The notes below the pieces were generated by a model. The model had not been told where the DNA came from and made no database searches. It worked only from the letters and a program-made list of their open reading frames with translations. A program made the translations under genes and the position numbers. A DNA stretch of 64,000 bases from Microbulbifer sp. YPW1 (GTDB lineage: Bacteria; Pseudomonadota; Gammaproteobacteria; Pseudomonadales; Cellvibrionaceae), in the NCBI RefSeq assembly GCF_013367775.1, contig NZ_CP055157.1, positions 2,559,001-2,623,000 on the forward strand, given 5' to 3'. Positions within the stretch are counted from its first letter, which is position 1, and each line of letters starts with the position of its first letter. Below, one piece after another: positions 15,093-31,119 of this stretch.

Positions 15093-16544
15093 TTACTGCA
15101 CAATCTTGATCCATTCGCCGGGCTTGGGTTCGCCCCGCGGATAATAACCGTTTAACAGCCGCAGTTGCTCCTCCGCATATTCGCCAATTTCCATATGTCG
15201 GGCGAGGGAGGAGAATGTGGTTTTATCATTGGCCTGCACGTACTTCACCCGCTTGATATCGGGTTTCACCACATCGGTTTTGCGCAGCGGGCGGAAGCTG
15301 CGGATACTGGTCAGGAACAGGTTGTCGTATTCGCTGCTCTCTTCGCTATCCTGCTTTTTGTTATTGATGCGGCCCTCCAGGATGTATTGGCGACTGCCAT
15401 AAAACAGCACTGCGACCCGGTCCGGTATATTCTCGCCGGCCACGGGCAGTTTGCCAGTGTGTCCCTCCAAGCGGTACTGGTTCAGTGCCTCGTCCTGCTC
15501 CAGGCTGCGCACATCGTATACACCGCGCAAAGCCATATCTGCGGGCTGGTTGCCATCCCGTTTGTCTACCCTGATCGTCAGGGTCGCAGACTTGTCCGGT
15601 GCTGTACCCACGATGGCGGTACGCTGGTTTTCCACCGTCCAGCCCTCCGGGAACAATAGCGAAAAGCCCAGGCTCTTGTGGTTGAAGCGGTTTTTCTCGC
15701 TCTCCTGGGCGTTCTGCCCGTACACAATGCCCTCGGTCTTTTCCCGGTAATACTCGACCTTGGTTATTTTTTTGTCTTCAGGCAGCGCGCCGGCTGCTTC
15801 TACTACCTCGCGCAGGCGAACGTCATTGCGGGGGTGTGATGAGAAGACACCGTGATACGTCTGCTGCTTCTTACCCTCCACACGGGCGCGTCGGCGGGCG
15901 AAGGTCTCCTGGTCTTTGAGCAGGGCAATCACATTGATCATTGACTGTGGGTCGTAGCCGGCGTTGTACATGTACTGTGCGCCGAATTTGTCCGCCTCCA
16001 GTTCCATGTCACGACCATAGCCTTTTACCGCAGCAGTGCTCCACAAGTTGGTCACGTCGCCGACAACGCCGCTGCCGGTGACGAGAACCGAGAGCACCGA
16101 AGCCACTCCGGCACCTGTGGCGGCGGTTTTCTGACGCACCGCGTGACGGGCGGTGATATGGCCCACCTCATGGGCGAGTACAGCGGCCATCTCGGCTTCC
16201 GACTGCAGATAGGTGAGCAGGCCGCGGTTGATATACACATAGCCGCCGGGCAGGGCGAAGGCGTTGATATCCTGGCTGTCGATCACGGTAAAGTGGTAGG
16301 TGAGATCGGGGCGGTCACTGGCCTTGGCGACCTTTTGCCCCACGTGCTCAACGTAGGCGTTGAGAATCGGGTCATTGTAGATGGGCGTGCTGGCAATCAG
16401 CTTTTCATGCATTTCCCGCCCGATCTTGATTTCCTTTTCTTCCGACATCAGCACCAGGTCCGGCCGGTTGGTGGCCGGATTGAAGGCACAGCCGGTTGCA
16501 GTGGCCAGCAGGATTGCTGCCAGTAGTTTGTTGATCGTGTGCAT
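15093..16544 (-). CDS. M48-family zinc metalloprotease lipoprotein with LysM-like tail
   Basis: The 483-residue protein has a lipobox ending TATGC (Cys19), so it should sit in the envelope as a lipoprotein. The zinc site is HEVGH at 125-129, with the third ligand in the MELEADKFGAQYM segment downstream, as in BepA/LoiP/YggG-type M48 proteases that edit outer-membrane proteins. The C-terminal 50 residues (TFSSLARH to PGEWIKIV) resemble a LysM peptidoglycan-binding fold. AGGAG precedes the ATG. It is the last gene of the long minus-strand cluster, 43 bases after the preceding lipoprotein gene, so it may process or assemble products of that cluster. Confidence 0.88.
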   Translation of the reverse strand: MHTINKLLAAILLATATGCAFNPATNRPDLVLMSEEKEIKIGREMHEKLIASTPIYNDPILNAYVEHVGQKVAKASDRPDLTYHFTVIDSQDINAFALPGGYVYINRGLLTYLQSEAEMAAVLAHEVGHITARHAVRQKTAATGAGVASVLSVLVTGSGVVGDVTNLWSTAAVKGYGRDMELEADKFGAQYMYNAGYDPQSMINVIALLKDQETFARRRARVEGKKQQTYHGVFSSHPRNDVRLREVVEAAGALPEDKKITKVEYYREKTEGIVYGQNAQESEKNRFNHKSLGFSLLFPEGWTVENQRTAIVGTAPDKSATLTIRVDKRDGNQPADMALRGVYDVRSLEQDEALNQYRLEGHTGKLPVAGENIPDRVAVLFYGSRQYILEGRINNKKQDSEESSEYDNLFLTSIRSFRPLRKTDVVKPDIKRVKYVQANDKTTFSSLARHMEIGEYAEEQLRLLNGYYPRGEPKPGEWIKIVQ

Positions 16545-16587
16545 CTGGGTCTCCTGTCGTTATTGTTTCCAGTCGAGTGTTACCCGC

Positions 16588-17262
16588 TCAGCGGCTGGCG
16601 GACTGCGGCGGCAGCAGGAATTCCTGCAGCTGTGCAGCCATGCCTTTGCAGGCGTTGTTCTGAACGCGAGCGATCAGAGGGATCGGTACCACAATGGCCG
16701 GCATGTAGGATGTACCCTGGGCATCTGCGCTGATCTTCCCAGACAGCTCCTGATCGCGGAAATCCCACACGGCGGCTTCGTAATCGGATTCTTTGTCCCA
16801 GGTGCCGAAGCCGAAGCAGCCGGCACCGGCAGTGCCGATGGAACAGCCGATGGAACCCGCACTGGAGGTGGTTTCGGTGGAGCCATCAATCCACACGATG
16901 TATTTCACCCCGTACTTTTCCATACGATCCCGCACATCGGGAATATCCATCAGCCTACCGAGGGACTTTATATGCATGGGCGCGGTACGCGGTTCGAACC
17001 AGGGATAGAGCGCATCCACAAACTGGCGCTCGGGAATCACATTCACCCCGGCTTTGGGGTTGTGCAGCGTCTTGCCTACACAGTCGATCAGATCCGGTTC
17101 GGTTTCGTAGTCGCTGGAGTGGCGTCGCCCTAGGATCACTACCGAGTCACCCAGGGCCAGCTCGCCGGTACTGCGGCGATACTCATCGATCACCACGGTA
17201 GTACAGCCACTGGAAAGTAATGCCAGCACAGAAACCGAAAAAAATGCGCTCAGGAATTTCAC
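16588..17262 (-). CDS. Envelope lipoprotein of unknown function
   Basis: The 224-residue product has a signal peptide with lipobox LLSSGC (Cys19) and a mature part rich in beta strands. A Gly/Ser/Cys-rich loop (SIGCSIGTAGAGCFGFG) is a feature I cannot match to a family. The start is GTG with AAGGAGG eight bases upstream; this ribosome site makes the choice firm. The mature protein contains several Cys that could form disulfides in the periplasm. It lies between another lipoprotein gene and the M48 protease gene in the large cluster, which suggests an outer-membrane component of the same assembly. Confidence 0.75.
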   Translation of the reverse strand: MKFLSAFFSVSVLALLSSGCTTVVIDEYRRSTGELALGDSVVILGRRHSSDYETEPDLIDCVGKTLHNPKAGVNVIPERQFVDALYPWFEPRTAPMHIKSLGRLMDIPDVRDRMEKYGVKYIVWIDGSTETTSSAGSIGCSIGTAGAGCFGFGTWDKESDYEAAVWDFRDQELSGKISADAQGTSYMPAIVVPIPLIARVQNNACKGMAAQLQEFLLPPQSASR

Positions 17263-17366
17263 CGGTACATCCTCCTTGTGATTCTCGCGAGGGTTTCAGC
17301 TGTGAAATACCCGCGAATGGAATCTCCTGATTCCTGGTTACCTGGTTTCCTCGCATGCGAAGGAAA

Positions 17367-18023
17367 CTATTCGTTGTCACCCGTCTGCTTCATGCTCAGG
17401 GCGCGCCGCTTGTTGTCAATGAACGCTTGCAGTTCCGGCACGCGTTCAAAACCGGTATACAGAGTTGCGCCCGCATCGCGCAGCGCCACGTTGATGGCCT
17501 GGGCGAGCGCGGCTTCCTGTGACTTCAGGAATGCGGTAGGGGTTTTGCCATAGGCGGTAATGACCCACTCGGCCACAGCATCTCCCTGCTGGTTATAGGC
17601 GTGCATGTCGTACTTGATCCACACCTCGAAGATATTCACCCGGGTTTCCCGCGGCATGGTGAACTGGAGTTCACGTACCTCCGGCACAATTACCAGATCG
17701 AGCCCCTGGGGCAGATTGGTCGGGTACTGTGCCAGGTTGATCGTCTCCTTGAACATGGAGCCGAGTACTGTCTCAAACAGGTTTTTCTGTGCGCGCCCGG
17801 TGTTGATGTTCCACTCATCGCGGTCGTCGCGATTCTCGCTATAAGTAAAATCACTGAAGTCCTCGCTCAGGTAGACACCTACCGTCAGGGGGTGCGGATT
17901 TCCCACCGGCGCCGGGAACTCTCCATCCACCGAGACGGTGTGGGCGCAGGCCGTCAACAGGCCGACCACGGCGAACAGCGACAATTTCCTGAGCGCGCTG
18001 ATTCCATTAAACATCCGATTCAT
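17367..18023 (-). CDS. Envelope lipoprotein of unknown function
   Basis: The 218-residue product begins with a signal peptide and lipobox LLTAC. The mature part is a mixed alpha/beta protein that I do not recognise, with the sequence VGVYLSEDFSDFTYSE near its start. The ATG at MNRMF is chosen because GGGAG lies six bases upstream; the frame remains open eight codons further. It follows the second vWA gene by 49 bases in the same direction. An outer-membrane lipoprotein partner of the cluster is the simplest reading. Confidence 0.75.
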   Translation of the reverse strand: MNRMFNGISALRKLSLFAVVGLLTACAHTVSVDGEFPAPVGNPHPLTVGVYLSEDFSDFTYSENRDDRDEWNINTGRAQKNLFETVLGSMFKETINLAQYPTNLPQGLDLVIVPEVRELQFTMPRETRVNIFEVWIKYDMHAYNQQGDAVAEWVITAYGKTPTAFLKSQEAALAQAINVALRDAGATLYTGFERVPELQAFIDNKRRALSMKQTGDNE

Positions 18024-18072
18024 GTGCTGCTCCCGGGTTTTTCTCAACCCTCTGCATATCCCTTACTGTGTG

Positions 18073-19074
18073 TCAGCGGAAATCGTTCAGGCCGACAAAA
18101 GTACCGCCATTTCTGTAAGTGAGTTCGCGCATCAGTGCCGCAAAGCGCAGGCCGGTGGTCTGCAGGTGCAGCGGACGAGAGAACTGGATCGGGAAACCGA
18201 TGGCATGGATCCGCACCATGCGCTGGTCTTCTCCACGCTGGGCATTTACCCGGTCTACCGCCATCATCACGTTGCGAATGGACTTGCCGGTAAATTCATC
18301 CCCGAGTACATAGATACTGATTTTCTTGTTCGGGTCGTAAAAAGTGCGTACCGCTTTCTGGATACCCTCTACCGGGCTCGAGTTACTGAACGGGTTCCAC
18401 GAGCGCAGGCGATCGAGCACTGCCTTGCGACGTCCCGGGGTGTCCGGAATCCAGCGGTTGCGATAATTGGAGAACATGTAGTCCCCCATATCGTTCATCA
18501 CCTGTATCCCTTTCACATTGGGATACAGGTTCAGGGTGTTGACCATCTCGTCGATCATCCGATCCCAGCCGTAATTGAACATACTGCCGGAGGTGTCGAT
18601 GATGAACAGGATGTATTCGCTGTCTACGGGAATACCGCCAATGACGTTATTCTTGCGCTGGTAGTTTTCTCCCAGCAGTCGCTTCATCTCATCGGTCATA
18701 CTTTGCAGGGCAATGGTCAGTTCGCCCTTGAGCTTGCCTTCCTCGGACTCGCCTTCGGTTTTCCTCGCGTACTGGGCGTGTAGTGTTTCCAGCTCACCCT
18801 TGAGCTTGGCAATACGCTTGGTTTCGATATCCAGCTGCTCTTTCTTGGCATTGAGGTCGCGATTCAATACCGAGGTCTCGCCGCGGATTTCCGCCAGCTG
18901 CTCCTGTAGCTCCTGCACTTGTCCGTCCAGATCCAGTTCGGCTTCTTCGAGGACAATCGGTTCTACGGTCTTGGCGATCATTAGCAACAGCACGATGGCG
19001 CCAAAGCCGCAACAGATCACGTCGAGAAACGAGATGCTGAACTCTTCCTGTTGTCGTTTGTTACGTCTGCTCAT
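18073..19074 (-). CDS. ExbD-like membrane anchor fused to coiled coil and vWA domain (second copy)
   Basis: The 333-residue protein starts with a basic stretch and a single membrane helix, FSISFLDVICCGFGAIVLLL. Asp18 lies inside the helix near its cytoplasmic start, as in ExbD/TolR/MotB. Residues 40-135 form a charged coiled coil. A von Willebrand A domain follows, with the metal-binding MIDAS motif DTSGS at 160-164. vWA domains bind protein partners through a metal ion. The start overlaps the stop of the first vWA gene by four bases. I infer that the protein replaces ExbD/MotB next to the TolQ-like channel encoded upstream. It ends in a short beta-rich segment. Confidence 0.8.
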   Translation of the reverse strand: MSRRNKRQQEEFSISFLDVICCGFGAIVLLLMIAKTVEPIVLEEAELDLDGQVQELQEQLAEIRGETSVLNRDLNAKKEQLDIETKRIAKLKGELETLHAQYARKTEGESEEGKLKGELTIALQSMTDEMKRLLGENYQRKNNVIGGIPVDSEYILFIIDTSGSMFNYGWDRMIDEMVNTLNLYPNVKGIQVMNDMGDYMFSNYRNRWIPDTPGRRKAVLDRLRSWNPFSNSSPVEGIQKAVRTFYDPNKKISIYVLGDEFTGKSIRNVMMAVDRVNAQRGEDQRMVRIHAIGFPIQFSRPLHLQTTGLRFAALMRELTYRNGGTFVGLNDFR

Positions 19075-20153
19075 GGCCAGTCCTTGGAGGGTGCGAGGAA
19101 AGACCCCTGGGTTTCCATGGCCAGCTTCCAGAATTCACTGGCGGCGAAGGGATCGCCTTCCATGGGGGCCAGGACCACATTGACCGGGATGCTCTTGGGC
19201 AGGGCATCCACTGCCTTGCGGAACAGCTTCAGGCGTTCCTTGCCGGAAATGGTGTTACCCCGCGGCGACTTCATCCCCTGGGTGGGTAGACCGTCGGTGA
19301 TCAGGATAATGTTGTCCGGCAGAGGCGACATGTTGTTTACCGCGTTGAAAATACGCTCCAGGCTGGTGCCGTTTTGCGGCACTATGGCATCCAGCTCCTT
19401 CATCGCGTTGTCCATCTGGTCCCGGTCATCTACATTCAGCCAGCGGTCTTCAGTGCCCACAATGGCAGCGCGGAAGCCGGTGTTGAAAGTGTAGATCTGG
19501 TACTGGCTGTCCTGGGGGAATTGCGACACCAACCAGGACACCGTCTGTTTAGCGCGGCGCCATTTTTCCGTGTCGCGTTTGACCGAGTCGGACATATTGC
19601 GGGTACGGATCACCTTGATCAGTTCGTCGCCCAGCATACTCGCGGAAGAGTCCAGCAGAATGAGGATGCGATCACCGCCAAGGCGCAGCCCGGTGAGATA
19701 TTGCCGATCGCCGTCGCCGACAAACTTGCGCACGTTGTTGCCCAGTTTCTTGTTTTCTTCTTCCAGTTGCTTCTTGGCCTGCTCGAGTTTCTTTAGTTTT
19801 TCCTGCAGGCGGGCGATATCCATTTCATCGGTACTGCTGTCGACCTCCGCAATGTTGCCCTTTACCTCCTCAATCTGATCCATGATGCGTCGGGCGAGCC
19901 CCTGGGCCTTGGCCAACTCATCACTGGTGGTGTCCAGGGTGTTGCGCGCCAGCACCAGGTGCTCGCGCCCGAACTGGACCTCTTCCTGCAGCAGGTTCAC
20001 TTCCGCTGACAGGTCCTCGTTTTCAGCCTGAATGTCGTTGTCGGAGCCGTGTTTTATGATCAGGAAGATCAATGCGACGGCCCCAAAACCGCAGGACATG
20101 ATGTCCAGAAACGACAGGCTGAACGCTGTAAACCGCCGTTTTTTACGCGCCAT
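19071..20153 (-). CDS. ExbD-like membrane anchor fused to coiled coil and vWA domain (first copy)
   Basis: The 360-residue protein has the same plan as its downstream neighbour. It has a basic N-terminus and a helix FSLSFLDIMSCGFGAVALIF with intramembrane Asp17. A long coiled coil spans about residues 38-142, and a vWA domain carries a MIDAS-like motif DSSAS at 168-172 and a later ITDGLPTQG strand. Both proteins share SFLDxxxCGFGA in the helix, so they are paralogues made to work together, probably as a heteromer. GGAG lies five bases before the ATG. The start overlaps the stop of the actin-fold-like gene by 11 bases, which implies tight co-translation. Confidence 0.8.
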   Translation of the reverse strand: MARKKRRFTAFSLSFLDIMSCGFGAVALIFLIIKHGSDNDIQAENEDLSAEVNLLQEEVQFGREHLVLARNTLDTTSDELAKAQGLARRIMDQIEEVKGNIAEVDSSTDEMDIARLQEKLKKLEQAKKQLEEENKKLGNNVRKFVGDGDRQYLTGLRLGGDRILILLDSSASMLGDELIKVIRTRNMSDSVKRDTEKWRRAKQTVSWLVSQFPQDSQYQIYTFNTGFRAAIVGTEDRWLNVDDRDQMDNAMKELDAIVPQNGTSLERIFNAVNNMSPLPDNIILITDGLPTQGMKSPRGNTISGKERLKLFRKAVDALPKSIPVNVVLAPMEGDPFAASEFWKLAMETQGSFLAPSKDWP

Positions 20154-21447
20154 AATGCTCCACGCTGATCGCAGTGATTACATCATCAAAGTTGGCCGCA
20201 CCGATCCGGTCGCCGGCAGTGAGGTTGACCGGCGCGGAGATTTCCTCGCCGTTCAACATCAGTTGCGCACCTGCATCCACACGCAGGGCCAGGCGACCGG
20301 CGTGGTTGGTGATGGTGGCTGCCGGATGGCTGGGCGGGGTGGGTGTGACATTGAGCTTGCCTTCCTGCCAGCTGACAAACAGCGGATGCTGTGCAGCCAG
20401 CGCGCGATGTCCATAGAGCAGGTGGGTGGCGCCTGCCTCCGCGGCAGCGTTGACCTGTACCGCCACCTCGGTGGTCGGCGCTGCGCTCATACTGGTAATC
20501 AGGCGCAGGTTGCCGCTGTCGCTGTGAATTTCCTGCCAGCGCTTCTCTGCCGATTGCGCCACGGCGTTGTGCGGCAGTAGATGAATGCGCTCAGCGAGCT
20601 GGGCGCCGCCGGGAATCTCAGCCCAGCGGTGGGAAACGAATACAACACTGTTGGGTTCACCGAGGTTTTCGATCATCGCACGCACCCGTGACAGGATCGG
20701 GGTACTGGCATCCTGCAGCTGTCGCAGGCTGACTTTGGCAGTGCGGTCATCCAGCTCTGCCATCACCTCACCCTGGCGCATGGCCTTGGCGATCCACTGG
20801 GGGAGCATGTCGTAGAGTTGTTGCTCTGCTTCAGCGGAATGCAGTGGGTCGAACCGACACTGCATGATGAAAGCATCGGTAAAAATACGTGCCCACGCTT
20901 CCTGGAAGTGCTGCAGTCCTGCGTCGGTGACGGTTTCCGCAATGTCCAGTTCCGCCTGTTCGTGTACTACCACGCGGCTCACCAGGGTCTGATGGCGGTG
21001 CAGGTCAATATGCAGGTGTACACCGCGCGGTGCGCAGCTGCTGATACAGGCAGCGGCAGAATCGATCAGTGCCACGGCGTTGAAAGGACTTTCCTTGATG
21101 ACTCCCAGCAACAGCGCGAGCTGTTCGCGGGTGAAATTTCCCGGGACGGCCAGCGCGACTTCGTCCGGGAGGTCACACAGCTCTGCAATATGCTGAAGGT
21201 GACAGAATGCGAGGTCCGCATGGTGGCGACATCCGGGATTGTCAGACTTTACCGACTCGAGGCTGAGCCGACGCCAGAACTGCTGGTTGACTTGGGTAGG
21301 GTGGCTGCGCGCACGCATCAGCGCGCCGGTACCGGTGAGGATCTCGCGCGTATTGATGATAGCGACACCGGGGCTTTCCAGTACCTCGTTATTGCCATCG
21401 AAAACGCGCAGGCCACAGTCGTTGATTTCCAGTACACCTTTGCTCAT
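20143..21447 (-). CDS. Degenerate actin/Hsp70-fold-like protein with FHA-like C-terminal domain
   Basis: The 434-residue cytoplasmic protein has no membrane segment. Its order of motifs recalls actin/Hsp70 ATPases: an N-terminal beta hairpin (GVLEINDCGLRVFDG), a segment LAVPGNFTREQLALLLG followed by VALIDSAAAC, and a strand HIDLHRHQTL where Hsp70 has its phosphate-2 loop. The glycines that bind ATP are missing, so it may not hydrolyse ATP. The last 65 residues, ending GAQLMLNGEEISAP and LTAGDRIGAANF, look like a small FHA-like beta sandwich that could bind phosphoprotein. AGGAG is five bases before the ATG. Position between channel and vWA genes suggests a cytoplasmic adaptor. Fold assignment is by eye only. 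Confidence 0.55.
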   Translation of the reverse strand: MSKGVLEINDCGLRVFDGNNEVLESPGVAIINTREILTGTGALMRARSHPTQVNQQFWRRLSLESVKSDNPGCRHHADLAFCHLQHIAELCDLPDEVALAVPGNFTREQLALLLGVIKESPFNAVALIDSAAACISSCAPRGVHLHIDLHRHQTLVSRVVVHEQAELDIAETVTDAGLQHFQEAWARIFTDAFIMQCRFDPLHSAEAEQQLYDMLPQWIAKAMRQGEVMAELDDRTAKVSLRQLQDASTPILSRVRAMIENLGEPNSVVFVSHRWAEIPGGAQLAERIHLLPHNAVAQSAEKRWQEIHSDSGNLRLITSMSAAPTTEVAVQVNAAAEAGATHLLYGHRALAAQHPLFVSWQEGKLNVTPTPPSHPAATITNHAGRLALRVDAGAQLMLNGEEISAPVNLTAGDRIGAANFDDVITAISVEHYGA

Positions 21448-21558: not shown

Positions 21559-22353
21559 TCAGCTGACTTTCAGGAAGCGCAATAATTTGTTGTCACAATA
21601 ATTCTGTGTATCCAGTACCAATCGCTCCTGCATCAGCTGCAGCTGGTGGGTGAAGAACATGATTACGATACTGATGACCAGCGCGATAAAAGTGGAGTTG
21701 AAGGCCACACCCAGGCTTACCGTAACCCCGGCAATATCACCTTCCACAGCGCGGTGTGCCTGGGCCAGGGCTTCACCGATGCCGCGTACCGTGCCGATAA
21801 ACCCGATCGAGGGAATCGCCCAGGTGATGTAGCGCACCATGGCCAGTTCAGAGTCCAGTCGATCGCCCTCGGTGTCACACACCTCCTTTACCGAGTTGGA
21901 TACGGCCGCCACGTTGCGGGTGGAGCCGAAGCGTTGTAGTGCGGTGAGCAGGGCGCGGGGCAGAAGGAAGTTGCGCTCTTCCTCTGGTAGCGCCTGTATC
22001 GGTCGCGATAAATCCCGCGCATCCTCCGGCAGGATTGGGGTGCCCTCGCTTACGTTGAGCAGCGCCTGGTCCAGCAGTTTGCGCTCGCGCATGCTGCGTC
22101 GCGCCTTCAGGCCCATAATGGCCATTGCCCACAACATCAGCACGAAGCAGGCCTCCTGCTCGTAGTCGCGCATCACGATGTAAATGGATCGCTGCTGGAT
22201 ATAGGTTTCGCCGGCTTCTTCGCGAGCCATCTGTTCTTCGATCAGGGCGTCGGCATTGGGCCGGATGATGGCCACGTAAATTGCGTGGACCAGGATGATT
22301 GCCCCGAGTAGGGCAAACAACTGGAATACAAAATCTGAAGACTTGAATTTCAT
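21559..22353 (-). CDS. MotA/TolQ/ExbB-family proton-channel protein
   Basis: This is the channel subunit of the cluster. It has one N-terminal membrane helix (LFALLGAIILVHAIYVAII), a second hydrophobic segment (CFVLMLWAMAIMGL), a cytoplasmic region, then the two signature helices: AIPSIGFIGTVRGIGEAL and GVTVSLGVAFNSTFIALVIS. The GFIGTVRGIGEA and ALxxT-type spacing match TolQ/ExbB/MotA proteins, which form a pentamer that conducts ions around an ExbD-type dimer. No ordinary exbD/tolR gene is adjacent; the two vWA proteins just downstream are the likely partners. The start at MKFKSS is preferred since the first ATG directly abuts its would-be ribosome site. Confidence 0.85.
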   Translation of the reverse strand: MKFKSSDFVFQLFALLGAIILVHAIYVAIIRPNADALIEEQMAREEAGETYIQQRSIYIVMRDYEQEACFVLMLWAMAIMGLKARRSMRERKLLDQALLNVSEGTPILPEDARDLSRPIQALPEEERNFLLPRALLTALQRFGSTRNVAAVSNSVKEVCDTEGDRLDSELAMVRYITWAIPSIGFIGTVRGIGEALAQAHRAVEGDIAGVTVSLGVAFNSTFIALVISIVIMFFTHQLQLMQERLVLDTQNYCDNKLLRFLKVS

Positions 22354-22453
22354 GGGTTTTCCCGCTTTTTGTGGGGCCATTCCTTTGGCAAAAGGCCCGG
22401 GTATTGCTCTGATTATGTCCGTTCAATCCGGTATTGCGTGTTGCGGTGGTCCG

Positions 22454-22832: not shown

Positions 22833-24923
22833 TCAGTTCACCCAGCGCGCCACACGAAAGCCAATATCGTCACGGGCTTCAGCACCATAGTCGCGGTAGG
22901 AGAGACGCAGTTCGGTAAGCCCTGCATGTTTCCAGCTGGAACCGCGAACCACGTGGTAATCCCCTTCCTGGGGACCCACGGGGTTCTCTTCCCGCTTCAG
23001 GGAGAGGCCAGTGCCAATGGTGTAGAGGTCGTGAATCCACTCAGATACATTGCCGCCCATGTCAAACACACCCATATGATTGGCGCCGAAGCTACCGACG
23101 GGTGCAGTGGCGGCATAGCGGTCGTTGTAGGTGCGCAGTACTGCGGGGACAATCTGGCCGGCACTGCTGTCGGCGTAGTTGCCGGAATTTTTGCCCACGG
23201 GCAGGGAGTCGCCCCAGGGGAATTTGCGCATTGCGCCGCGTTCGTAACGGGCGGTCCAGGCCCACTCCGCTTCGGTGGGCATGCGATAGCCATTGGCGCT
23301 TGCGTCGAACCCGACCACCCGGCCGCGCTCGCTGCGATAGACCTCCTTGAGGCCGTCGCGTGCACTGAGCCAGTTGCAGAAAAGTGCCGCGTCATTCCAG
23401 CTGACATTCACTACCGGCAGACTGTCGTTATCGAGACTGATACCGTTGGCGTGGCTGGAGCTATGCATGCGTTTGTAGCGGCGATATTCGCGGTTGGTCA
23501 CCTCGGTGGCACCGATATAAAACGGGCGGGTGAGGGCTATTTTTCGCAGCACCTCGTTGGCGCGCCGGCCCTGTTCTCGACGGGAGGAACCCATGGTGAA
23601 CTGCGTATTCGGACGCATCAGCAGCATCTTGCCACCGGCGCCGTGGGTAATCTCTGCGGCAACATTGCTCCAGCGTGCCTGCTCACCGGTCAGTAATACT
23701 GCACGCACCGACTGCTTGAGTTTGCTGGAGGGCACGATGGTGGTCTGGTAGTCCTCGTAGCCGGACTTGCGAACGGTAATGGTGTGGCTGCGGGTCGGTA
23801 GGGTGAAGGTCTGCCCGGCTCTACCCGCGAGCTTGCCATCGATAAATACCTGGGCATCCTCGGGGCTGCTGGAGATGGAGACCTTGCCGAATACGGCAGT
23901 GAGCTGCACGTTCATATCCTGCAGGTCGCCCGCGCGTACATCCACGCTGCGTTCCACGGTACTGTAACCATCGAGGAAAAAACGCAATTCGTGGCGACTG
24001 TTGGATGCGAGATCGAGATCCATGGGGGTCTGGCCGCGATACTCACCATTGACGGTAACACTGGCCCCTGGTGGGTTGGTCACAACGCGCAGAGTGCCAT
24101 CGGCGGCATTGAGGTCGACGGTCTCCAGTGTCTGGTCGACCCCCGCAGTGACCGGCACCGGGACCTGTACGGTCTTGTATTGGGGCAGCGAAATATCTAC
24201 CAGCCGATCTCCCTGTACAAGTTCTGCAGTGAGCGGTGTGGTACCGAGGATTTTTCCTTCGACACTCACGGTTGCTCCGGCCGGGTTGCTGGTGATGTGT
24301 ACGTTGGCCCAGGCGGGGCGCAATTTGGCTGTGAGTGTCTGGGTGTTATCCAGACCTTCGATTTCGATTTCCTTGCTGAATGGCAAGTAGCGATCGGTGA
24401 GGATCGTGATGCGCTTGCGGCCTGCGGGAATGGACTCGGCTAGACCATCGCTGCTGGTAACTTCGGTGCCATTCACTAGCACCCGTACCGGTACCTGAGG
24501 ATCAGTCACAACCTGCAAGTGTCCCGGCAGGCGTTCCAGATTGACCGCATGGCGGCTGTTACTGTCGCTGCTGACTTCCACTTCGCCACTCTGCGGGATA
24601 TAGCCTGTCGCACTGATGGTGTAGCTGTAATGTCCGGGCAGCACCAGGTGGCCGTCGCCCAGGGGCAGGGCCAGGCCGCTGACGGATACATCCGCATCCG
24701 CGGGTTGCGTTTCGAAAATCAGGGAGCGCGCCACCAGTAGATAAACCAGCATCAATGCGCCCAGTAACAGGCAGCCGGCGACAGTGATGGCCTTGGGTGA
24801 CAGCAGCAGTTTTTTGCCGCCGGAGGAAACCGGGGCCGGGGTGAATCCGATCGGTTGGATGACCGAAAGATCTTCATTTTCCGGTTCGTTATCACGAACG
24901 GGTACCGCTTCCTTGGCTGTCAT
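22833..24923 (-). CDS. Five-PEGA protein with cysteine-less formylglycine-enzyme-like domain
   Basis: The 696-residue inner-membrane protein has a cytoplasmic N-terminus, one membrane helix (about residues 47-68) and a large periplasmic part. Five PEGA-type beta repeats lie at about 70-135, 137-205, 208-275, 281-347 and 350-413. A SUMF1/FGE-sulfatase fold domain follows from about 435 to the end (MGSSRREQG, YRMPTEAEWAWTAR, MGGNVSEWI, VVRGSSWKH, IGFRVARW). The two catalytic Cys of formylglycine-generating enzymes are absent; the matching region reads RGSSWKHAGLTELRLSYRD. It is therefore probably a structural or ligand-binding version. AGGA nine bases before the ATG supports the start. Confidence 0.85.
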   Translation of the reverse strand: MTAKEAVPVRDNEPENEDLSVIQPIGFTPAPVSSGGKKLLLSPKAITVAGCLLLGALMLVYLLVARSLIFETQPADADVSVSGLALPLGDGHLVLPGHYSYTISATGYIPQSGEVEVSSDSNSRHAVNLERLPGHLQVVTDPQVPVRVLVNGTEVTSSDGLAESIPAGRKRITILTDRYLPFSKEIEIEGLDNTQTLTAKLRPAWANVHITSNPAGATVSVEGKILGTTPLTAELVQGDRLVDISLPQYKTVQVPVPVTAGVDQTLETVDLNAADGTLRVVTNPPGASVTVNGEYRGQTPMDLDLASNSRHELRFFLDGYSTVERSVDVRAGDLQDMNVQLTAVFGKVSISSSPEDAQVFIDGKLAGRAGQTFTLPTRSHTITVRKSGYEDYQTTIVPSSKLKQSVRAVLLTGEQARWSNVAAEITHGAGGKMLLMRPNTQFTMGSSRREQGRRANEVLRKIALTRPFYIGATEVTNREYRRYKRMHSSSHANGISLDNDSLPVVNVSWNDAALFCNWLSARDGLKEVYRSERGRVVGFDASANGYRMPTEAEWAWTARYERGAMRKFPWGDSLPVGKNSGNYADSSAGQIVPAVLRTYNDRYAATAPVGSFGANHMGVFDMGGNVSEWIHDLYTIGTGLSLKREENPVGPQEGDYHVVRGSSWKHAGLTELRLSYRDYGAEARDDIGFRVARWVN

Positions 24924-25309: not shown

Positions 25310-26878
25310 TCAGGATTTATTGGCGCTGTTAATTTTCTCTGCACACTCGATGGTGACTACCGGTGATTCGGAAGATGGGTCGACCACAAATTCCTGGCGC
25401 ACATCGCGGTACCCGTGACGGGTACCCACGGCGGTGTAGCGGCCGGGCTTGAGGGCAATCTCACGCTCGGAAAAATTTCCCAGCTTGCCAACGTGATAAA
25501 TGGTGACATTTGTGCTGGCATCTGACTGTAACAATACGGTGATCGGAATCAGGGATTTGGTCAGTGCAGTTTCCAGCTGTTCGATCTGGCCCTGTAACCG
25601 CGGGGTGCTGACGTCTAATGCGCGCGCTTCCGCGAGCACCTTGCGGGCATACTGATTGCGCTTGCTTTGTCCGAGGAGTAACGGATCACCGAGTAACTCC
25701 TGCAGCTGATCATCCAGTTTGGCTCGGGCTTGCGAGCGCGCCTTGCCGGTGATGGCCTCTACCAGGCTGCTGTCTTCAGCGATCAGCTTTCCGTACTTTT
25801 CTGCGGCCTTGTGCCACTGCTCCTGCTGCTCGCTAGCCGCGGCGCTGTCAAAAAGACGATCGATACGAGCCTGGGCGATTCCGTTATTTGCCTGTGCAAT
25901 ACCCACACCGGGATCGGAGGCGTTGGGTTTCAGCTTTCGCGCTTTTAAGAAAAACGACTTGGCCTTGTCATAGTCACTTTTGGCGATGGCTGCGTACCCC
26001 GCGGACATCGCCTCGCTGTAGTCCCGTTCCAGGATTGCCGCATTCACCTCAGGCAGCAGCGCCTTGGCGGGTGCTGTGTCGCCATCCAGTTCGAGGGCCT
26101 TTTCCAGTTCCGCCTTCGCCGTATCCAGGGTGTTTTCCGCGAAGGCTTCCTTACCGGCGGTAAAGTGTGGCCACACCTCGGGTAAGAGCTCGGCGCGCTC
26201 CTTTCCCTTTACGCCGCGGGGGTGCTTTTCGGATATGGTGAGCACCAGGTCAAAAGCCTTGCTGGCCGCTTCGGCGTCTCCGCTGTCGAGTGCGCTGTTT
26301 CCTTCCGCCAGATGTTGTTCAATACGCTGGGGAATACTGTCTCGCAGCTGCTGCATGCCGGCAAGGGCCTGGCGGTACTGTTCCAGTGCCTGCATAAATT
26401 TACGCTGGCGATAGATGCCGTCCGCTTCTTCGGCCAGGGTACGTGCGGCAAAGTATTCTTCCGCAGCCCAGGTTTCCACCTTTCGCTCCAGGAGTTCCTC
26501 CTGCAATTGCAGTATCTCCTGCAGGACCTGCTGTACCTCTCTGCGCTGTGCGGTAATTTCCGCGTCGGTATACGGGGATTCCTTGATTTTTTTAACCGGA
26601 GTGGCTGGTGCGCTGCCATCTTGAACCGGGCTGGCAACCCTGGTTACAGTCGGCTTTTCAACCACCTGCGGCAATACCCAGAATACGCCCACCAGAGCAG
26701 CGAGCATACCGCTGCCCAGCAGGACCGGGACTAGTTTTCCGCTGCCGGACTTTTTGTCTGCGGTACCCGGCTGTGGGCCGGGTTTGACGTCTTCGCCGGT
26801 CGAGGAATCGCCACCGAATGAAAAGTCGGCGGGCTGAATGAAAGGCTGATCTTCCGATGATGGATCGCGGTGTTGCAT
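25310..26878 (-). CDS. Membrane-anchored TPR-like protein with PEGA-like C-terminal domain
   Basis: The 522-residue protein has a disordered cytoplasmic N-terminus of about 47 residues and one membrane helix (LVPVLLGSGMLAALVGVFWV). A long periplasmic helical region at about 100-430 has repeat spacing typical of tetratricopeptide repeats (for example AIAKSDYDKAKSFFLKARKL). The last 80 residues form a beta domain (ITVLLQSDASTNVTIYH, EREIALKPGRYTAVGTRHGY) like a PEGA module. GGGA precedes the ATG. The same membrane topology and PEGA-type ending as the downstream protein suggest that both build one periplasmic scaffold. Confidence 0.78.
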   Translation of the reverse strand: MQHRDPSSEDQPFIQPADFSFGGDSSTGEDVKPGPQPGTADKKSGSGKLVPVLLGSGMLAALVGVFWVLPQVVEKPTVTRVASPVQDGSAPATPVKKIKESPYTDAEITAQRREVQQVLQEILQLQEELLERKVETWAAEEYFAARTLAEEADGIYRQRKFMQALEQYRQALAGMQQLRDSIPQRIEQHLAEGNSALDSGDAEAASKAFDLVLTISEKHPRGVKGKERAELLPEVWPHFTAGKEAFAENTLDTAKAELEKALELDGDTAPAKALLPEVNAAILERDYSEAMSAGYAAIAKSDYDKAKSFFLKARKLKPNASDPGVGIAQANNGIAQARIDRLFDSAAASEQQEQWHKAAEKYGKLIAEDSSLVEAITGKARSQARAKLDDQLQELLGDPLLLGQSKRNQYARKVLAEARALDVSTPRLQGQIEQLETALTKSLIPITVLLQSDASTNVTIYHVGKLGNFSEREIALKPGRYTAVGTRHGYRDVRQEFVVDPSSESPVVTIECAEKINSANKS

Positions 26879-26966: not shown

Positions 26967-28163
26967 TCAGATGTCACTCATACCACCGGTTTCTACCTCA
27001 TAGATTTCCTTGAGCAGCTCGCGCCACTGGCGGTACTGGTTTTCCACAGAGCCGGACAGGGTCACGGTACGGTCTTCCAGTTCCACGATTCGGGGCTCAA
27101 CTTCCGCCTCCATGGAATCTCCCAGTTCCTGCAGTGCCTCGATATGCATCTTGGCTTCAGAGCGGCGATCAAAACCGCTTTTCACCAGATAGCCGCCGCC
27201 GGCCACTGCCACGTTACCCGCCTGACGGGCGGCACCACCGCCAGCGCCAGCCGCGGCAATGCCGCCGACAATGGCAGCGACGCCCATGATGGTGTTGTTG
27301 CGCGCTTTGCGTTTCAGTTCGCGCATCTGCTTCACTTCTTCATAGCTCATGGCACGCCACTCCTGATAGGGCGTCTCCATGGTTTTGACGAAGGTGTCGT
27401 AGTAGCCCTGTAGGGTATCTACGAACAGGTAATCGCGTTCGCGAATCTGGCGTACCCGCATCAGCATCGGGTCATTGTCGGCGGGCAGGGCGGTGAGCTG
27501 GTAAAGTCCCTGATCGTCCTGCACCAGGTAACGATCGAAGGCACCGGGAGAAAAGCTGCGGGCAAATTTAATTTCGGAAATGGTGCGCAGCTCGGCAATA
27601 TATTCACTCGACAGTCCCTGGCGATAGGTGAGCAAGTCGTTGGAAATACGGTTGTAGATTCCCTGGAAGGCATCCCCTTCGGTGGGGTGTTTACGGTCGT
27701 AGGCGTAGTGGGAGGCCTGCTCGGTGTACTCCCTGGTAAACCATACCTGGCCGCGAGAATCGGTGGCGGTGACCTCTACGGTCAGGGTTTCGCCATCGGA
27801 CTGAACGATGGTTCCGGTGACGGTTACATCGATATTGGTGCGCTCACTGGGAATTACCCGCACGGCGCCCCAGCCCTGACTGGATTGCAACGCGTCCGCG
27901 AGAGTTACCGCGATATAGCGGGATTCGGCGCGGCGTAATTCCGGAAATACCAGCTCGTCCTCTTCCGGTTCCTCTTCCTGCTCCAGGCCCGCATTGAATT
28001 GCACAATGCCCACATCCAGCAGGCGATTTTCGGCGATTGCCGCATCCTCTACCGTCAGCGGGGTGTAGGCGGTGGTGCGGACCTCGGTTGTGGTGCAGCC
28101 GGCAAGCACCAGTAAACTCAGTGCCAGGCTGCACAGGGTTGTGCGTGTGTGCGAGAAAAACAT
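26967..28163 (-). CDS. Envelope lipoprotein with glycine-zipper segment
   Basis: The 398-residue product has a signal peptide with lipobox VLAGC (Cys23) and an acidic patch (EQEEEPEEDEL). A beta-rich central domain (INVTVTGTIVQSDGETLTV-like strands) is followed by a Gly/Ala-rich hydrophobic stretch, GVAAIVGGIAAAGAGGG, that resembles a glycine zipper able to insert in or associate with membrane. A charged helical tail follows. GGGAG lies upstream of the ATG. It begins 30 bases after the serine-rich lipoprotein gene, so the two are co-transcribed. I do not recognise the family. Confidence 0.75.
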   Translation of the reverse strand: MFFSHTRTTLCSLALSLLVLAGCTTTEVRTTAYTPLTVEDAAIAENRLLDVGIVQFNAGLEQEEEPEEDELVFPELRRAESRYIAVTLADALQSSQGWGAVRVIPSERTNIDVTVTGTIVQSDGETLTVEVTATDSRGQVWFTREYTEQASHYAYDRKHPTEGDAFQGIYNRISNDLLTYRQGLSSEYIAELRTISEIKFARSFSPGAFDRYLVQDDQGLYQLTALPADNDPMLMRVRQIRERDYLFVDTLQGYYDTFVKTMETPYQEWRAMSYEEVKQMRELKRKARNNTIMGVAAIVGGIAAAGAGGGAARQAGNVAVAGGGYLVKSGFDRRSEAKMHIEALQELGDSMEAEVEPRIVELEDRTVTLSGSVENQYRQWRELLKEIYEVETGGMSDI

Positions 28164-28193
28164 ATCACTACTCTCCCTGATGAATACTCATCT

Positions 28194-29591
28194 TCATTTC
28201 TGTGATTTTTTATATTTCCGGTACTCTTCCCAGAGTCGCTCTTGTAATTCAGGATCGGATTCGCGCATGGCAGCTTCGCGAATCTGACGGGCGACCACAT
28301 CGTCATCATCACCGCTGGGTATATCCGCGGGTACCACGGCGGTTGATCCGGTGTGGTTATACTCGCCCTGGCGCCCTTTGGTGGGCAGCCCGGGTCCGGT
28401 GGCCTGGCCGCTGGAGTTGTTCTGCTCTGGACCACCGCCCTCTTCACCGCTAGCGGCGGGTGGCGCGCCACCGAATTCCTCTTCGGCGGTTTTGATCAGA
28501 TCTTCCAGAGATTCACCCGGGGGAACTTCGTCTTCAGCCGCAGCTTCTTCTTCCGGCGAGGCAGGACGGTTGCGGACGTAATCCCGCTCGCGCAGGATCA
28601 TGCCGTCGTAACTGGCCATGGTGGATTCGAACTGACCTTCCAACTCCGCAACCCGTTCGGCAGAGCTCACTGGCGCCTCGTTGGGTGCCTGGTTGCTTCC
28701 GCCAGGCTGGCCACCACCGGCAGCGCTGGCTTGCGCGGTACTTTGCTGACCACCGCTCTGGCCTCCGCCACTCTGCCCCCCACCACTCTGCCCCCCACCA
28801 CTCTGCGCTCCTGCGGGGGAGCTGTTGGATGGCGAACTGCTGGATGCGCTGCTTGGTGCACTGCTCGAAGCGCTGGCTGAAGCGCTACTTGTAGAACTGG
28901 CGCTGCTGCTGGAGGAGGAACTACTGGACGACGAGCTGCTGGACGACGAACTGCTGGACGAAGAGGCACTCGCGGTTTTTTCCTCCTCGGAAAAATCGAT
29001 TTCATCCGGCGGCTCGCCCTGGCTGTTGGATGACGGATCCGGCGGCATACGGGAATCTTCCGGGCGCTGGTCGGAATCGCTGTACACCGGTGTCGACGGG
29101 TTGCCGCTGGCGCTTGGGTCCTGTGCGCTGCTGCTGGACGAGCGCGAGCGCCGCTCGGATTCCGAACCGCTGTTGGACGCGGTGGAAGCCTGTTGGCTGG
29201 AGCGGTCGCCAGACTCGATACTCGGCATGGAGGTGTTCGGCTGAGCAGGACTGCTCGATGTCGATATGCTCGGACTACTCCGGCTGCTGCTGGGCGAGCT
29301 GGGTGACGGCATGCTGCTAGCCGTAGAGGGGCTCGATTTGGATTGGCTCGACGATGAGCTGGATGACTGCGACTGAGACTGGGATTGCGACGAGCTGGAA
29401 GGGCTCGACGGAGATTTCTGTTGTGGTTGTGCTGGCGGCTGCTGTTGCGTCTGCTGGTTTTTACAGCCGCTGATCACGGCTGCCAACACCACCACAGAGG
29501 CGAGGGCTTGCCAGCGCAGGCCTGAAAAGTCAGATGCCGGTTTATGCGCCGAGCTGCGATTAAAATAGTGTGCAATCTTCCGTAATGCCAT
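28194..29591 (-). CDS. Serine-rich low-complexity lipoprotein
   Basis: The 465-residue product has a signal sequence ending in lipobox VISGC (Cys43). A very long Ser/Gln/Pro/Gly-rich region of about 270 residues follows, including uninterrupted serine runs and GGGQS repeats, then a charged, more ordered C-terminus (about residues 305-465) ending RLWEEYRKYKKSQK. The start at MALRKIAH is chosen because AGGAG lies eight bases upstream; the open frame reaches 46 codons further. The serine region is probably an extended, possibly glycosylated or phosphorylated spacer that carries the C-terminal part across the periplasm or out from the cell. Confidence 0.75.
   Translation of the reverse strand: MALRKIAHYFNRSSAHKPASDFSGLRWQALASVVVLAAVISGCKNQQTQQQPPAQPQQKSPSSPSSSSQSQSQSQSSSSSSSQSKSSPSTASSMPSPSSPSSSRSSPSISTSSSPAQPNTSMPSIESGDRSSQQASTASNSGSESERRSRSSSSSAQDPSASGNPSTPVYSDSDQRPEDSRMPPDPSSNSQGEPPDEIDFSEEEKTASASSSSSSSSSSSSSSSSSSSSSASSTSSASASASSSAPSSASSSSPSNSSPAGAQSGGGQSGGGQSGGGQSGGQQSTAQASAAGGGQPGGSNQAPNEAPVSSAERVAELEGQFESTMASYDGMILRERDYVRNRPASPEEEAAAEDEVPPGESLEDLIKTAEEEFGGAPPAASGEEGGGPEQNNSSGQATGPGLPTKGRQGEYNHTGSTAVVPADIPSGDDDDVVARQIREAAMRESDPELQERLWEEYRKYKKSQK
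28751..28806. repeat. 15-base direct repeats encoding GGGQS units
   Basis: Nearly identical 15-base units (core ACCACTCTGCCCCCC on the plus strand) lie in tandem inside the serine-rich lipoprotein gene. They encode the GGGQS repeats on the minus strand and are prone to slippage. Confidence 0.7.
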
Positions 29592-29823
29592 GAGCTTTCT
29601 CCTGATGCGTTCACGGGTCGCAGCGAAATCGCGGCGACCCGTTTTGCTCCTTGTCTGTTCGACAGTTTTTGTCCCTTGGGGTTTGCAGGCCTGAATATTT
29701 CTGGTGCCAGTTTTTACGCTGCGTAACATGGCTACCTGAATCTTTACCTGTGTCCCGGCGGACGCAAACCAAACCTCGCTACATCAGTCGAACACGATGA
29801 TTCCTCTTTTCTTCACATTCTCT

Positions 29824-31119
29824 TCAGTCGAATACAAATCTCTGCACGATACCGGTAGTTTCCACCGGTTCTCCATTCTCAAATCGCGGCCGGAACTTCG
29901 CTTTTTTGAGAACGTTGCGCACCCGTGAACGAATACTTACCTTGCTTTCCGGTTTCGCGCTGAGGATCTGGATATTGCGCGCCTTGCCGAATGCGGTGAC
30001 GTCATAGGAAACGGTCACATAGCTGTTTGCCAGTGCTTCACGATCTTCGTCCAGCAGCGGCAGGGTGGGCAGCGCCGCAGGACGACCGAAAATCTCGTCG
30101 ATCTCCTGATTGGTAGCACCGTTGTCCCATAGGGCCTGGTAGGCCTCACCGTAGGTTTCGCGCGCGGAGTGCCACTTGTTGAACATCATGTACCAGTCAC
30201 CCAGTTCCACTTTCGCTTTCGCAGAAGCGGCCGGTGGTGAGCTCGGGTTTTTCTGGTAAACATCCATGATTTTGGTGATCGCGGTTTTACCTGAACTGAA
30301 ACTGTTGATGCGGTAGTGGTCGAGTTGCGCGCGGCGCTGCTGGTCCATATTGCCGCCGCCGAAACTGGTGTTTACCACAATGGCTTCCTGGGGCTCGCCG
30401 GAATAGGTGGCGAGGTAGTAATTGGTAGCCTTGAGGCCGCGCAGAGCTTCCACCAATCGCAGGTCGTTGGCACCGAAGTTCTGAGAAATGATATCTACCG
30501 CCAGCGCATAGAGGTTGGTGGCATTGATCAGGTGCTCGAAAAGGGTGGCTCCTTTTTCGTCGATATAGGCCTGCAGGTGCCAGTTGCTCAATTGATTGAT
30601 GATCGGCAGCATGCGCGGATCTTTTTCTCCGTAATTTTTTGCGTGCAGCCAGAAAAGGTATTCGTGGTTGTCGTTGGCCTCTTCCCACTGGTTGAGCGCT
30701 ATCTGGCTTTCAATCATGCGCTCGATCATCGGTACCTGGTTGAGGGAGTAAAGCCCCTCGTTTACGCGATTGATCAGCATCGCGCGACGGAATTCTGAAA
30801 TCGCCAGCTCATGTGCTCCGCTGCGTTGCAGTGCGGAGCCGAGCCCCATCAACTGCTCATCCAGCCCGGCGCCGTAGGCTCCGTACTCTGCTTCCATTTC
30901 CTCGATGCGCTGGCGGTATTCATCTGCGGCTTTTGATGGGCGAAGTTGTCGTTTGGGTTTTTCCAGTGGTTTTGAGGCCGCTTCTATATAAGCCGCTGGA
31001 GGAGCCTTGGCATTGTCGAGTGCGGAGATTTCCTCCGCCGCAACAGAGCCACACAGCAGAGCTGAGGCTGTAAACATCAAGCCGATAGCAATAGTGTTGC
31101 TGGTATCTGTCTGTGTCAC
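29824..31119 (-). CDS. Periplasmic TPR-like protein with TonB-like C-terminal domain
   Basis: The product starts at a GTG followed by a hydrophobic stretch and a signal-peptidase-like site (GSVAAEE). The mature protein has a helical, TPR-like body and, in its last 65 residues, a TonB-type C-terminal domain (VTVSYDVTAFGKARNIQIL, then AKFRPRFENGEPVETTG). Unlike TonB it has no N-terminal membrane anchor motif beyond the signal and no Pro-rich spacer. An ATG 39 codons earlier also stays in frame, but it would put an odd 45-residue extension before the signal sequence, so I prefer the GTG. It is the first gene of the large cluster. Outer-membrane contact through the TonB-like domain is inferred. 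Confidence 0.75.
   Translation of the reverse strand: MTQTDTSNTIAIGLMFTASALLCGSVAAEEISALDNAKAPPAAYIEAASKPLEKPKRQLRPSKAADEYRQRIEEMEAEYGAYGAGLDEQLMGLGSALQRSGAHELAISEFRRAMLINRVNEGLYSLNQVPMIERMIESQIALNQWEEANDNHEYLFWLHAKNYGEKDPRMLPIINQLSNWHLQAYIDEKGATLFEHLINATNLYALAVDIISQNFGANDLRLVEALRGLKATNYYLATYSGEPQEAIVVNTSFGGGNMDQQRRAQLDHYRINSFSSGKTAITKIMDVYQKNPSSPPAASAKAKVELGDWYMMFNKWHSARETYGEAYQALWDNGATNQEIDEIFGRPAALPTLPLLDEDREALANSYVTVSYDVTAFGKARNIQILSAKPESKVSIRSRVRNVLKKAKFRPRFENGEPVETTGIVQRFVFD

Follow-up and report, generated by a model that had tools for sequence, protein, structure and literature searches.

Gene cluster and its conservation

The minus strand of Microbulbifer sp. YPW1 carries 13 genes between positions 15093 and 31236 of the window (the entire 64,000-nucleotide stretch analysed here) that form one conserved cluster (Table 1) and very probably an operon. 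All 13 genes are present in 56 of the loci of 80 named relatives, in an identical order and on a single strand in every one of them (56/56); 41 of these complete loci come from outside Microbulbifer. This conservation of gene order far beyond the genus argues that the cluster is not a chance arrangement. It bears out the original prediction in two respects, in that the 13 consecutive minus-strand genes are a real unit and in that the same neighbours recur, as that prediction had proposed to test.

Table 1. Genes of the cluster, with positions in the window, in the order of transcription
Gene	Position	Strand	Core	Features
TonBC	29824..31236	-		exported TPR protein, TonB_C-like C-terminus; most upstream gene; start at 31119 equally likely
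SerR	28194..29729	-	core	lipoprotein in this strain, Ser-rich linker, conserved C-terminal motif; start uncertain
LpC	26967..28163	-	core	lipoprotein, predicted to be sorted to the outer membrane
TPR	25310..26878	-	core	single-TM protein, periplasmic TPRs
PEGA/FGE	22833..24923	-	core	one TM segment, four PEGA repeats, FGE domain (catalytically dead)
Sm110	22454..22786	-		small protein, hydrophobic N-terminal segment
ExbB	21559..22380	-	core	TolQ/ExbB-type channel; PF01618, 1e-13
Act	20143..21447	-		predicted Hsp70-NBD fold, FHA-like C-terminus, without nucleotide motifs
vWA1	19071..20153	-	core	transpore-helix Asp, coiled coil, vWA head with MIDAS
vWA2	18073..19074	-	core	second, heterologous TPH-vWA protein
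LpB	17367..18047	-		lipoprotein (lipobox in 73/84); start uncertain
LpA	16588..17262	-		lipoprotein (lipobox in 62/81), conserved Cys residues
M48	15093..16544	-		metalloprotease lipoprotein, BepA-like N-terminal part; PF01435, 1.6e-38

More distant Gammaproteobacteria and Mariprofundaceae retain a seven-gene core (SerR-LpC-TPR-PEGA/FGE-ExbB-vWA1-vWA2), the order of which is kept in 66/66 named loci having all seven genes; the other six genes (TonBC, Sm110, Act, LpB, LpA and M48) lie outside this conserved core. The remaining 24 named loci account for 84 missing gene cells, 71 of them beyond a locus end. Where there was room for them to be seen, the only core genes missing are four in one split operon (locus L054), and LpC is still found elsewhere in that genome. 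A GDPD gene (13771-14883) was rejected as a member of the cluster, being seen in 13 loci only, every one of them from Microbulbifer.

Median intergenic gaps range from -4 to 44 bp over all 12 gene pairs (64-80 loci). The original prediction of several genes overlapping by 4-11 bases was overstated: just two pairs overlap in Microbulbifer sp. YPW1 (vWA2/vWA1 by 4 bp and vWA1/Act by 11 bp), and the ten remaining gaps span 25-386 bp, with the longest at the TPR/PEGA junction. In a promoter and terminator scan of 15093-31236 the minus strand was free of terminator-like sites, with totals not exceeding those of shuffled sequences; this is weak evidence that the genes may be co-transcribed.

The channel and its probable vWA partners

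The channel protein ExbB is present in 77 of the 80 named loci, the three misses all falling beyond locus ends. Its assignment as a TolQ/ExbB-type channel, already made in the original prediction, is upheld by the Pfam match (Table 1), by an alignment to residues 103-211 of the TolQ chain 8odt (E only 0.098) and by the matching of both TolQ pore Thr residues in 101 of 103 ExbB proteins. The two ExbD-like vWA proteins of that prediction are likewise upheld. Both have an ExbD/TolR-like N-terminal membrane helix, and the key helix Asp is found in 106/106 vWA1 and 106/107 vWA2 proteins. The sole exception (locus L068) has a split vWA2 frame, and the two genes occur together in all 80 named loci.

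The spacing between the membrane-helix Asp and the MIDAS Asp varies little in both proteins, with a median of 151 for vWA1 (134-156, n=104 of 106) and 142 for vWA2 (124-144, n=101 of 107). Coiled-coil matches cover approximately residues 35-147 of vWA1. The MIDAS pattern is unmatched in 2/106 vWA1 proteins and in 4/105 vWA2 proteins having a readable helix, and vWA2 scores under the Pfam VWA cut-off. None of the 13 proteins matches the ExbD/TolR family in Pfam or contains the SHLS motif, in agreement with the expectation that the channel would be devoid of an ordinary exbD/tolR partner. Seven other places in the genome belong to the MotA_ExbB family, so the ordinary Tol/Ton motors are probably separate. 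Overall, the gene set and its order, together with the membrane helices and the Asp, Thr and MIDAS residues, are well supported at the level of sequence.

Probable periplasmic and outer-membrane components of the core

A strong hydrophobic N-terminal segment is seen in 85 of 88 TPR proteins of at least 400 residues. In the PEGA/FGE protein, the segment corresponding to the FGE catalytic site was located in 93 of 95 proteins. The catalytic motif of formylglycine-generating enzyme, CxxxxC, is absent from all of these segments (0/93), and a working FGE enzyme was rejected on this basis. The GldK model (TIGR03525, NCBIfam) scores 115.8 bits against a cut-off of 350, which leaves this protein outside the GldK family.

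The C-terminal motif of SerR is conserved in 84/87 proteins. The description of SerR as a Ser-rich lipoprotein, correct for Microbulbifer sp. YPW1, does not extend to the family: in distant loci the protein is shorter and lacks this richness in Ser (median Ser content of 8.1%, n=21, vs 19.2%, range 5-29%, in 66 named loci), and a lipobox was found in 66/87 proteins, with none recognised in 21. A universal Ser-rich lipid tether was therefore rejected, and the variable Ser content and missing lipoboxes indicate that flexible tethering by a lipid does not belong to the core features.

LpC has no Asp at +2 and presumably resides in the outer membrane. Residues ~36-192 are predicted, by structural matching, to adopt a TolB-N/CsgG/PelC/FlgT-like fold, an assignment derived mainly from VIA alignments, with a Foldseek E <= 0.001 for one chain only. 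The same fold occurs in TolB, LptE and PqiC. The protein also has a long helical hairpin, the hydrophobic tip of which is rich in Gly. Sequence searches of solved structures with LpC, LpA and LpB returned nothing usable.

Accessory proteins

TonBC was found in 64/80 named loci (all but one of the 16 misses being beyond a locus end) and is rare beside the core in distant loci (5/28), while Sm110 occurs in 74/80 named and 12/28 sampled distant loci. Act is predicted to have the fold of the Hsp70 nucleotide-binding domain, as the original assignment to an actin/Hsp70-like fold had it. Proteins of the Hsp70/ASKHA type carry phosphate and adenosine motifs (DLGGGT-type and GG). Inspection by eye showed both to be absent from Act in every one of the 20 + 32 rows (A2 and A4), and a canonical ATPase was rejected. 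Act is present in 10/28 sampled distant loci and in 0/10 fetched loci of the Mariprofundaceae group.

In one locus (L202) LpB and LpA lie away from the core, and relatives of LpA occur in two genomes having no motor match (G164 and G084), so LpA is not motor-specific. The M48 protease was correctly recognised in the original prediction, with the Pfam match (Table 1) and HExxH in 74/74 proteins; a lipobox is seen in 47/74. Against the BepA model (NF052400) it scores 146 bits, with a cut-off of 570, and is thus not classed as BepA.

Distribution and origin

Strong vWA1 matches were detected in 20 of 274 class genomes; for the class of Mariprofundaceae the figure is 12/78 genomes. This patchy distribution indicates that the function is not essential. 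LpC was found in 19 of the 274 class genomes. Of these, 18 show a strong vWA1 match and the 19th has broken remnants; LpC was not found in 2 of the 20 genomes with strong vWA1 matches. The gene set is carried by marine bacteria and occurs in named cultured strains, e.g. Microbulbifer species and Pseudoalteromonas denitrificans.

A mobile element was rejected: vWA1 had no plasmid match, and its tree broadly follows taxonomy, with long branches, unsure deep joins and Bowmanella (Alteromonadaceae) placed apart from other Alteromonadales. The same applies to a defence origin, since PADLOC matches (7 proteins) were weak, with the lowest E-values on coiled-coil parts. The best E-value of the channel with PADLOC ZorA was 0.011, and its score with the NCBIfam ZorA model (NF033917) was 12.2 bits vs a cut-off of 500, giving no assignment to Zorya. 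A phage origin was rejected as well, the only match in PHROGs (5 proteins) being to the vWA2 coiled coil (phrog_6631, 1.6e-5).

Proposed mechanism and alternatives

The anatomy described above gives good support to an ion-driven envelope machine. In the reading that we prefer, with a probability of roughly 0.6, the operon encodes an envelope-spanning machine in which a vWA1/vWA2 axle in the ExbB channel acts on outer-membrane lipoproteins. ExbB would form a TolQ/ExbB-like pentamer, and a vWA1/vWA2 heterodimer would take the place of ExbD/TolR as its axle. Each axle subunit would comprise one membrane helix with a proton-binding Asp, a coiled coil of ~100 residues and a MIDAS-bearing vWA head kept at a near-constant distance from the membrane. 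Ion flow may move the axle so that the heads take hold of and let go of partners close to the outer membrane, probably LpC, as a ring-type lipoprotein, and SerR through its conserved C-terminal motif. PEGA/FGE and TPR, both anchored in the inner membrane, would provide a static periplasmic scaffold. Act could serve as a cytoplasmic adaptor or regulator in many Gammaproteobacteria, and the further lipoproteins and the M48 protease might extend the outer-membrane side. We infer the stoichiometry, the movement and the other steps of force transmission, the partner contacts and the purpose from this arrangement; passing ion-driven movement to outer-membrane lipoproteins is the most likely role.

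Among the alternatives, a powered machine for export or assembly of a surface polymer or protein, with LpC rings forming an outer-membrane exit or collar (like PelC, CsgG and FlgT) driven or gated by the motor, in the manner of GldLM in the type IX system, seems unlikely. It would account for the LpC domain and for the dead FGE domain, the fold of which also occurs in GldK/PorK. On the other hand, no beta-barrel, glycosyltransferase or obvious cargo is found among the 13 proteins, and TolB, LptE and PqiC share the LpC fold yet are not known to export polymers. An envelope sensor, in which ion flux and vWA binding would inform the cytoplasm, via Act, of the envelope's mechanical or chemical state, is improbable given that Act is not a core protein, even though its fold and FHA-like end would suit such a role and a cousin motor locus (L135) has FHA and PP2C proteins.

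We doubt strongly that the cluster encodes an Agl-Glt-like engine for gliding or surface motility. The partner subunits in that system, AglQ and AglS, are of the ExbD type, and no ExbD family match is found among the 13 proteins. The part types in common are channel, TPR, FHA, TonB_C and lipoprotein-type proteins (PMC3169522). The chance of a divergent Tol-Pal or Ton system is very small: the TolQ-like channel, the TolB-N-like LpC and the TonB_C end of one accessory protein would fit it, yet gene content mostly refutes it, as no TolR/ExbD, TolA or Pal family match is found in the 13 proteins and the genome has its other MotA_ExbB-family places.

A bolder version of the preferred machine, which we advance tentatively and consider somewhat doubtful, is a complete, unnamed class of trans-envelope ion motors apart from Tol-Pal, Ton, Mot, Agl-Glt, Gld and Zorya. 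In it, the seven core genes would provide an axle coupled to an outer-membrane ring of TolB/CsgG-fold lipoproteins, with metal-binding heads gripping and releasing the acidic end motif of SerR so that ion flow drives cyclic pulling or rotation right at the outer membrane, and a nucleotide-free Hsp70-fold/FHA protein acting as a cytoplasmic clutch in some lineages.

Comparison with known systems

To our knowledge, a job has been established for no more than a few of the 5:2 ion-driven motors. The cluster shares with Tol-Pal and Ton a channel of the 5:2-type family and, presumably, ion-driven force applied to the outer membrane; it differs in having vWA heads instead of TolR/ExbD, TolA/TonB with their SHLS helix and Pal. 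Neither the Tol-Pal set (TolR, TolA, TolB propeller, Pal) nor the Ton set (ExbD, TonB with an SHLS membrane helix) is represented among the 13 proteins. If the proposed machine is real, the axle itself, ending in a vWA head, would carry force to the outer membrane in place of a side arm of the TolA/TonB type. The Agl-Glt system of Myxococcus gliding likewise combines a TolQ-like channel and two partner subunits with TPR, FHA and TonB_C domains, but the partners there are ExbD-type and the protein families differ. GldKLMN of type IX secretion also unites an ion motor with an FGE-fold protein; in contrast, the FGE domain here sits on a TM-anchored PEGA stalk, and ten proteins scanned gave no match to GldL/GldM. 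LpC has in common with FlgT, PelC, CsgG and the TolB N-domain the predicted fold of its residues ~36-192, to which it adds the hairpin and tip.

The closest relatives are TolQ-like motors for which paired vWA "transpore helix" (TPH) proteins have been proposed as the axle, a motor of this type having been modelled there with AF3 (PMC12204202, Mol Biol Evol 2025). These have a TolQ-like gene without tolR/exbD, a heterologous vWA pair and a conserved transpore-helix Asp, and they occur in Proteobacteria; the present cluster agrees in its channel gene adjoining the vWA genes, heterologous pair, helix Asp and lack of tolR/exbD and SHLS. The original prediction of an ion-driven envelope machine stands as regards anatomy, but the machine is not wholly undescribed, the motor core having already been proposed in PMC12204202; in addition, six of the genes are non-core. 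Within the literature searched, where only PMC12204202 was directly relevant, we did not find the seven-gene core, LpC with its combination of fold and hairpin, a dead FGE domain on PEGA repeats, an Hsp70-fold protein without nucleotide motifs or the SerR motif. For the second family of that study, section 8 and the legend to Fig. 4 (panel c of which concerns an Idiomarina cluster) name no PEGA/FGE, LpC, SerR, TPR or Hsp70-fold protein, extra lipoproteins or M48. With candidates for an outer-membrane ring, a scaffold and a ligand motif, the seven conserved genes would make the published prediction of a motor core a testable machine.

Conservation and layout of the probable operon

Scanning of species genomes with an alignment of vWA1 (the first of the two TPH-vWA proteins, which combine a transpore helix, a coiled coil and a MIDAS vWA head) yielded at least 592 matching stretches, 585 of them relatives, and the best 80 were taken as loci. 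All 13 genes are present in 56 of these best 80, invariably in the same order and on one strand; the recurrence of the same neighbours around the channel and vWA genes, as anticipated in the original prediction, is thereby confirmed. Outside Microbulbifer the complete set occurs in 41 of 64 loci, in order in all 41. The remaining 24 loci lack 84 gene cells, 71 of which lie beyond the locus end as judged from expected gene lengths. The other 13 (nine loci) had room to be seen: the M48 protease in four loci, the Hsp70-fold/FHA-like protein Act in three, the small protein Sm110 in a single locus, and in L054 the stretch from TonBC to PEGA/FGE. In one incomplete locus (L080), TPR and PEGA matches are fragmentary, located at the locus end and reversed in order. 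The seven core genes (SerR, LpC, TPR, PEGA/FGE, ExbB, vWA1 and vWA2) are found together in 66 of the 80 loci with their order kept in every one. The operon is also present in a locus titled as a Klebsiella pneumoniae MAG (L056), whose vWA1 tree neighbour is an uncultured gammaproteobacterial MAG (L057); the former is probably mislabelled.

A distant sample of 28 loci (L120-L137 and L165-L174) contained the seven core genes in 20 cases, in order in 19, the exception being L127 with ExbB moved behind vWA2. The accessory genes are less regular in this sample (Act in 10 loci, LpB and TonBC in five each, LpA and M48 in four each). Ten of the 28 loci belong to a single family outside the window's class, the Mariprofundaceae (assigned by the names on three vWA1 proteins; class Mariprofundia per NCBI). 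In L123 and L124 the operon lies near another ExbB-family gene, in a setting that by order and gene lengths looks like yebC-ruvCAB-ybgC-tolQR.

The window spans bases 2559001-2623000 of a 4.58 Mb single-contig chromosome, and its closest named relatives among the matches listed in the vWA1 scan are Microbulbifer (M. mangrovi, L010, vWA1 99%). The 13 minus-strand genes were verified by translating them and searching for family matches; a further family search covered ten of them. Overlaps of 4 and 11 bp agree in size with those originally proposed, but they involve only two gene pairs rather than several, the ten other gaps being 25-386 bp. Median gaps for each adjacent pair, computed with mechanically chosen gene starts over 64-80 named loci, range from -4 to 44 bp, which is typical of an operon. 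A scan of the window, no better than shuffles, found no minus-strand terminator-like site inside the operon. The long gap between TPR and PEGA/FGE in the window, against a median of ~0 across 72 named loci, possibly holds an internal promoter or decayed sequence. The downstream neighbours are a GDPD gene and a GGDEF 7TM protein.

Coordinates of the operon, its surroundings and related loci
Feature	Sequence	Positions	Strand
13-gene operon	window	15093-31236	minus
386-bp gap, TPR to PEGA/FGE	window	24924-25309	
Class IV aminotransferase and Yip1-domain protein, upstream	window	31909-34092	plus
ExbB-family channel, one TPH-vWA protein, FHA, PP2C and trypsin-FHA proteins	L135 (G090:C1:4000-22302)	8122-13570	
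Broken LpC and TPR pieces	L199 (G185:C1:1838000-1857900)	6370-9500	
LpB-LpA pair	L202 (G167:C52)	7978-9400	

Channel and proposed axle proteins

ExbB matches PF01618, and the alignment of its profile to 8odt TolQ spans residues 103-211 (E 0.098) and puts the GTV and ST threonines on those of TolQ. An alignment of 30 sequences shows no variation at either threonine, and both were matched in 101 of 103 loci; in the other two the pattern missed the second-site threonine. Pairing of the channel with an ordinary exbD/tolR gene, an arrangement at odds with the original prediction, was not encountered, as family searches matched none of the 13 window proteins to the ExbD family.

The N-terminus of vWA1 and vWA2 is a single hydrophobic helix, with F-L-D inside it in the window. 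The membrane Asp is present in vWA1 in 106/106 cases and in vWA2 in 105/107 by pattern (counting the cousin protein of L135) and by eye in L127, vWA2 of L068 being a split frame. The D-x-S-x-S of the head is found in 104/106 vWA1 and in 101/105 vWA2 with a readable helix. In both proteins a nearly constant distance separates the membrane Asp and the MIDAS Asp, with a median of 151 residues in vWA1 (134-156, n=104) and 142 in vWA2 (124-144, n=101). Residues ~35-147 of vWA1 are coiled-coil-like; since a helix rises 0.15 nm per residue, ~100 coiled-coil residues would span roughly 15 nm.

Linkage and distribution across genomes

A class sample of 274 genomes was searched with vWA1, LpC, Act and LpA irrespective of position. 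At E <= 0.001 vWA1 gave 24 matches: 20 were stronger than 1e-50, and those in G054, G090, G210 and G240 were weak. The lipoprotein LpC was matched in 19 genomes, 18 of which fall among the 20 with strong vWA1. In 12 of these 18 genomes vWA1 and LpC lie on one contig; for the remaining six, the contig with the vWA gene measures 3.6-5.1 kb or starts within 1.2 kb of that gene. The nineteenth, the one-contig genome G185, carries broken LpC and TPR pieces and, by profiles, no motor genes in the 20 kb around the LpC pieces, and so looks like it retains a decayed operon copy. LpC had no match in two of the 20 strong vWA1 genomes (G087 and G213). In L054, where the upstream half is absent beside the motor, LpC is still present in the genome, on a separate contig. 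Act was matched in 14 genomes, 11 clearly and all among the 20, and weakly in three (G169, G205, G216); LpA was matched in nine, seven among the 20 and two without a motor match. The LpB-LpA pair of G167 is on a contig other than that of the core operon; an oppositely oriented NlpC/P60 gene lies next to it.

In a phylum sample, vWA1 was matched in 15 of 299 genomes (the window's own, one congener, 12 of the Mariprofundaceae group and, weakly, G054) and not in G447 of the window's own family. In the group's class, better known as Zetaproteobacteria, vWA1 was matched in 12 of 78 genomes. From these distributions of vWA1, LpC, Act and LpA, the system is patchy and accessory but cohesive. A vWA1 tree of 75 rows shows the expected groups for Microbulbifer, the Halieaceae and most of the Colwellia/Pseudoalteromonas/Alteromonadales rows; Bowmanella is separate from the other Alteromonadales, and the tree's deep branches are long and uncertain.

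Proposed mechanism and role

Gene set, gene order and conserved residues are established at the sequence level; the folds of Act and LpC are predicted. Ion flow through ExbB would turn or tilt the vWA axle, the vWA heads would cyclically contact LpC and SerR, and the static side may be held by the PEGA/FGE and TPR proteins. The related locus L135 combines its channel and TPH-vWA protein with an FHA protein, two PP2C phosphatases and a trypsin-FHA protein, and PEGA/FGE, LpC, TPR and SerR were not found in it, suggesting a modular motor that is combined with varying partners. Among candidate roles we rank force-driven outer-membrane remodelling highest, followed by powered export or assembly, sensing and motility.

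Comparison with known systems

A membrane-tethered vWA family co-occurring with tolQ in the absence of tolR/exbD is described in section 8 of PMC12204202 (Mol Biol Evol, June 2025). According to this text, its vWA proteins mostly form heterologous pairs and carry a proton-binding Asp, an AF3 model puts them inside the pentamer, and the function of the family is not known. The text of section 8 makes no mention of SerR, LpC, TPR or PEGA/FGE for this family, and no other description of the machine was found in the open-access literature searched. The original prediction of an undescribed machine thus appears to hold for the whole assembly in the literature searched but not for its motor, which agrees with the published family description in all features compared and is already known as a prediction.
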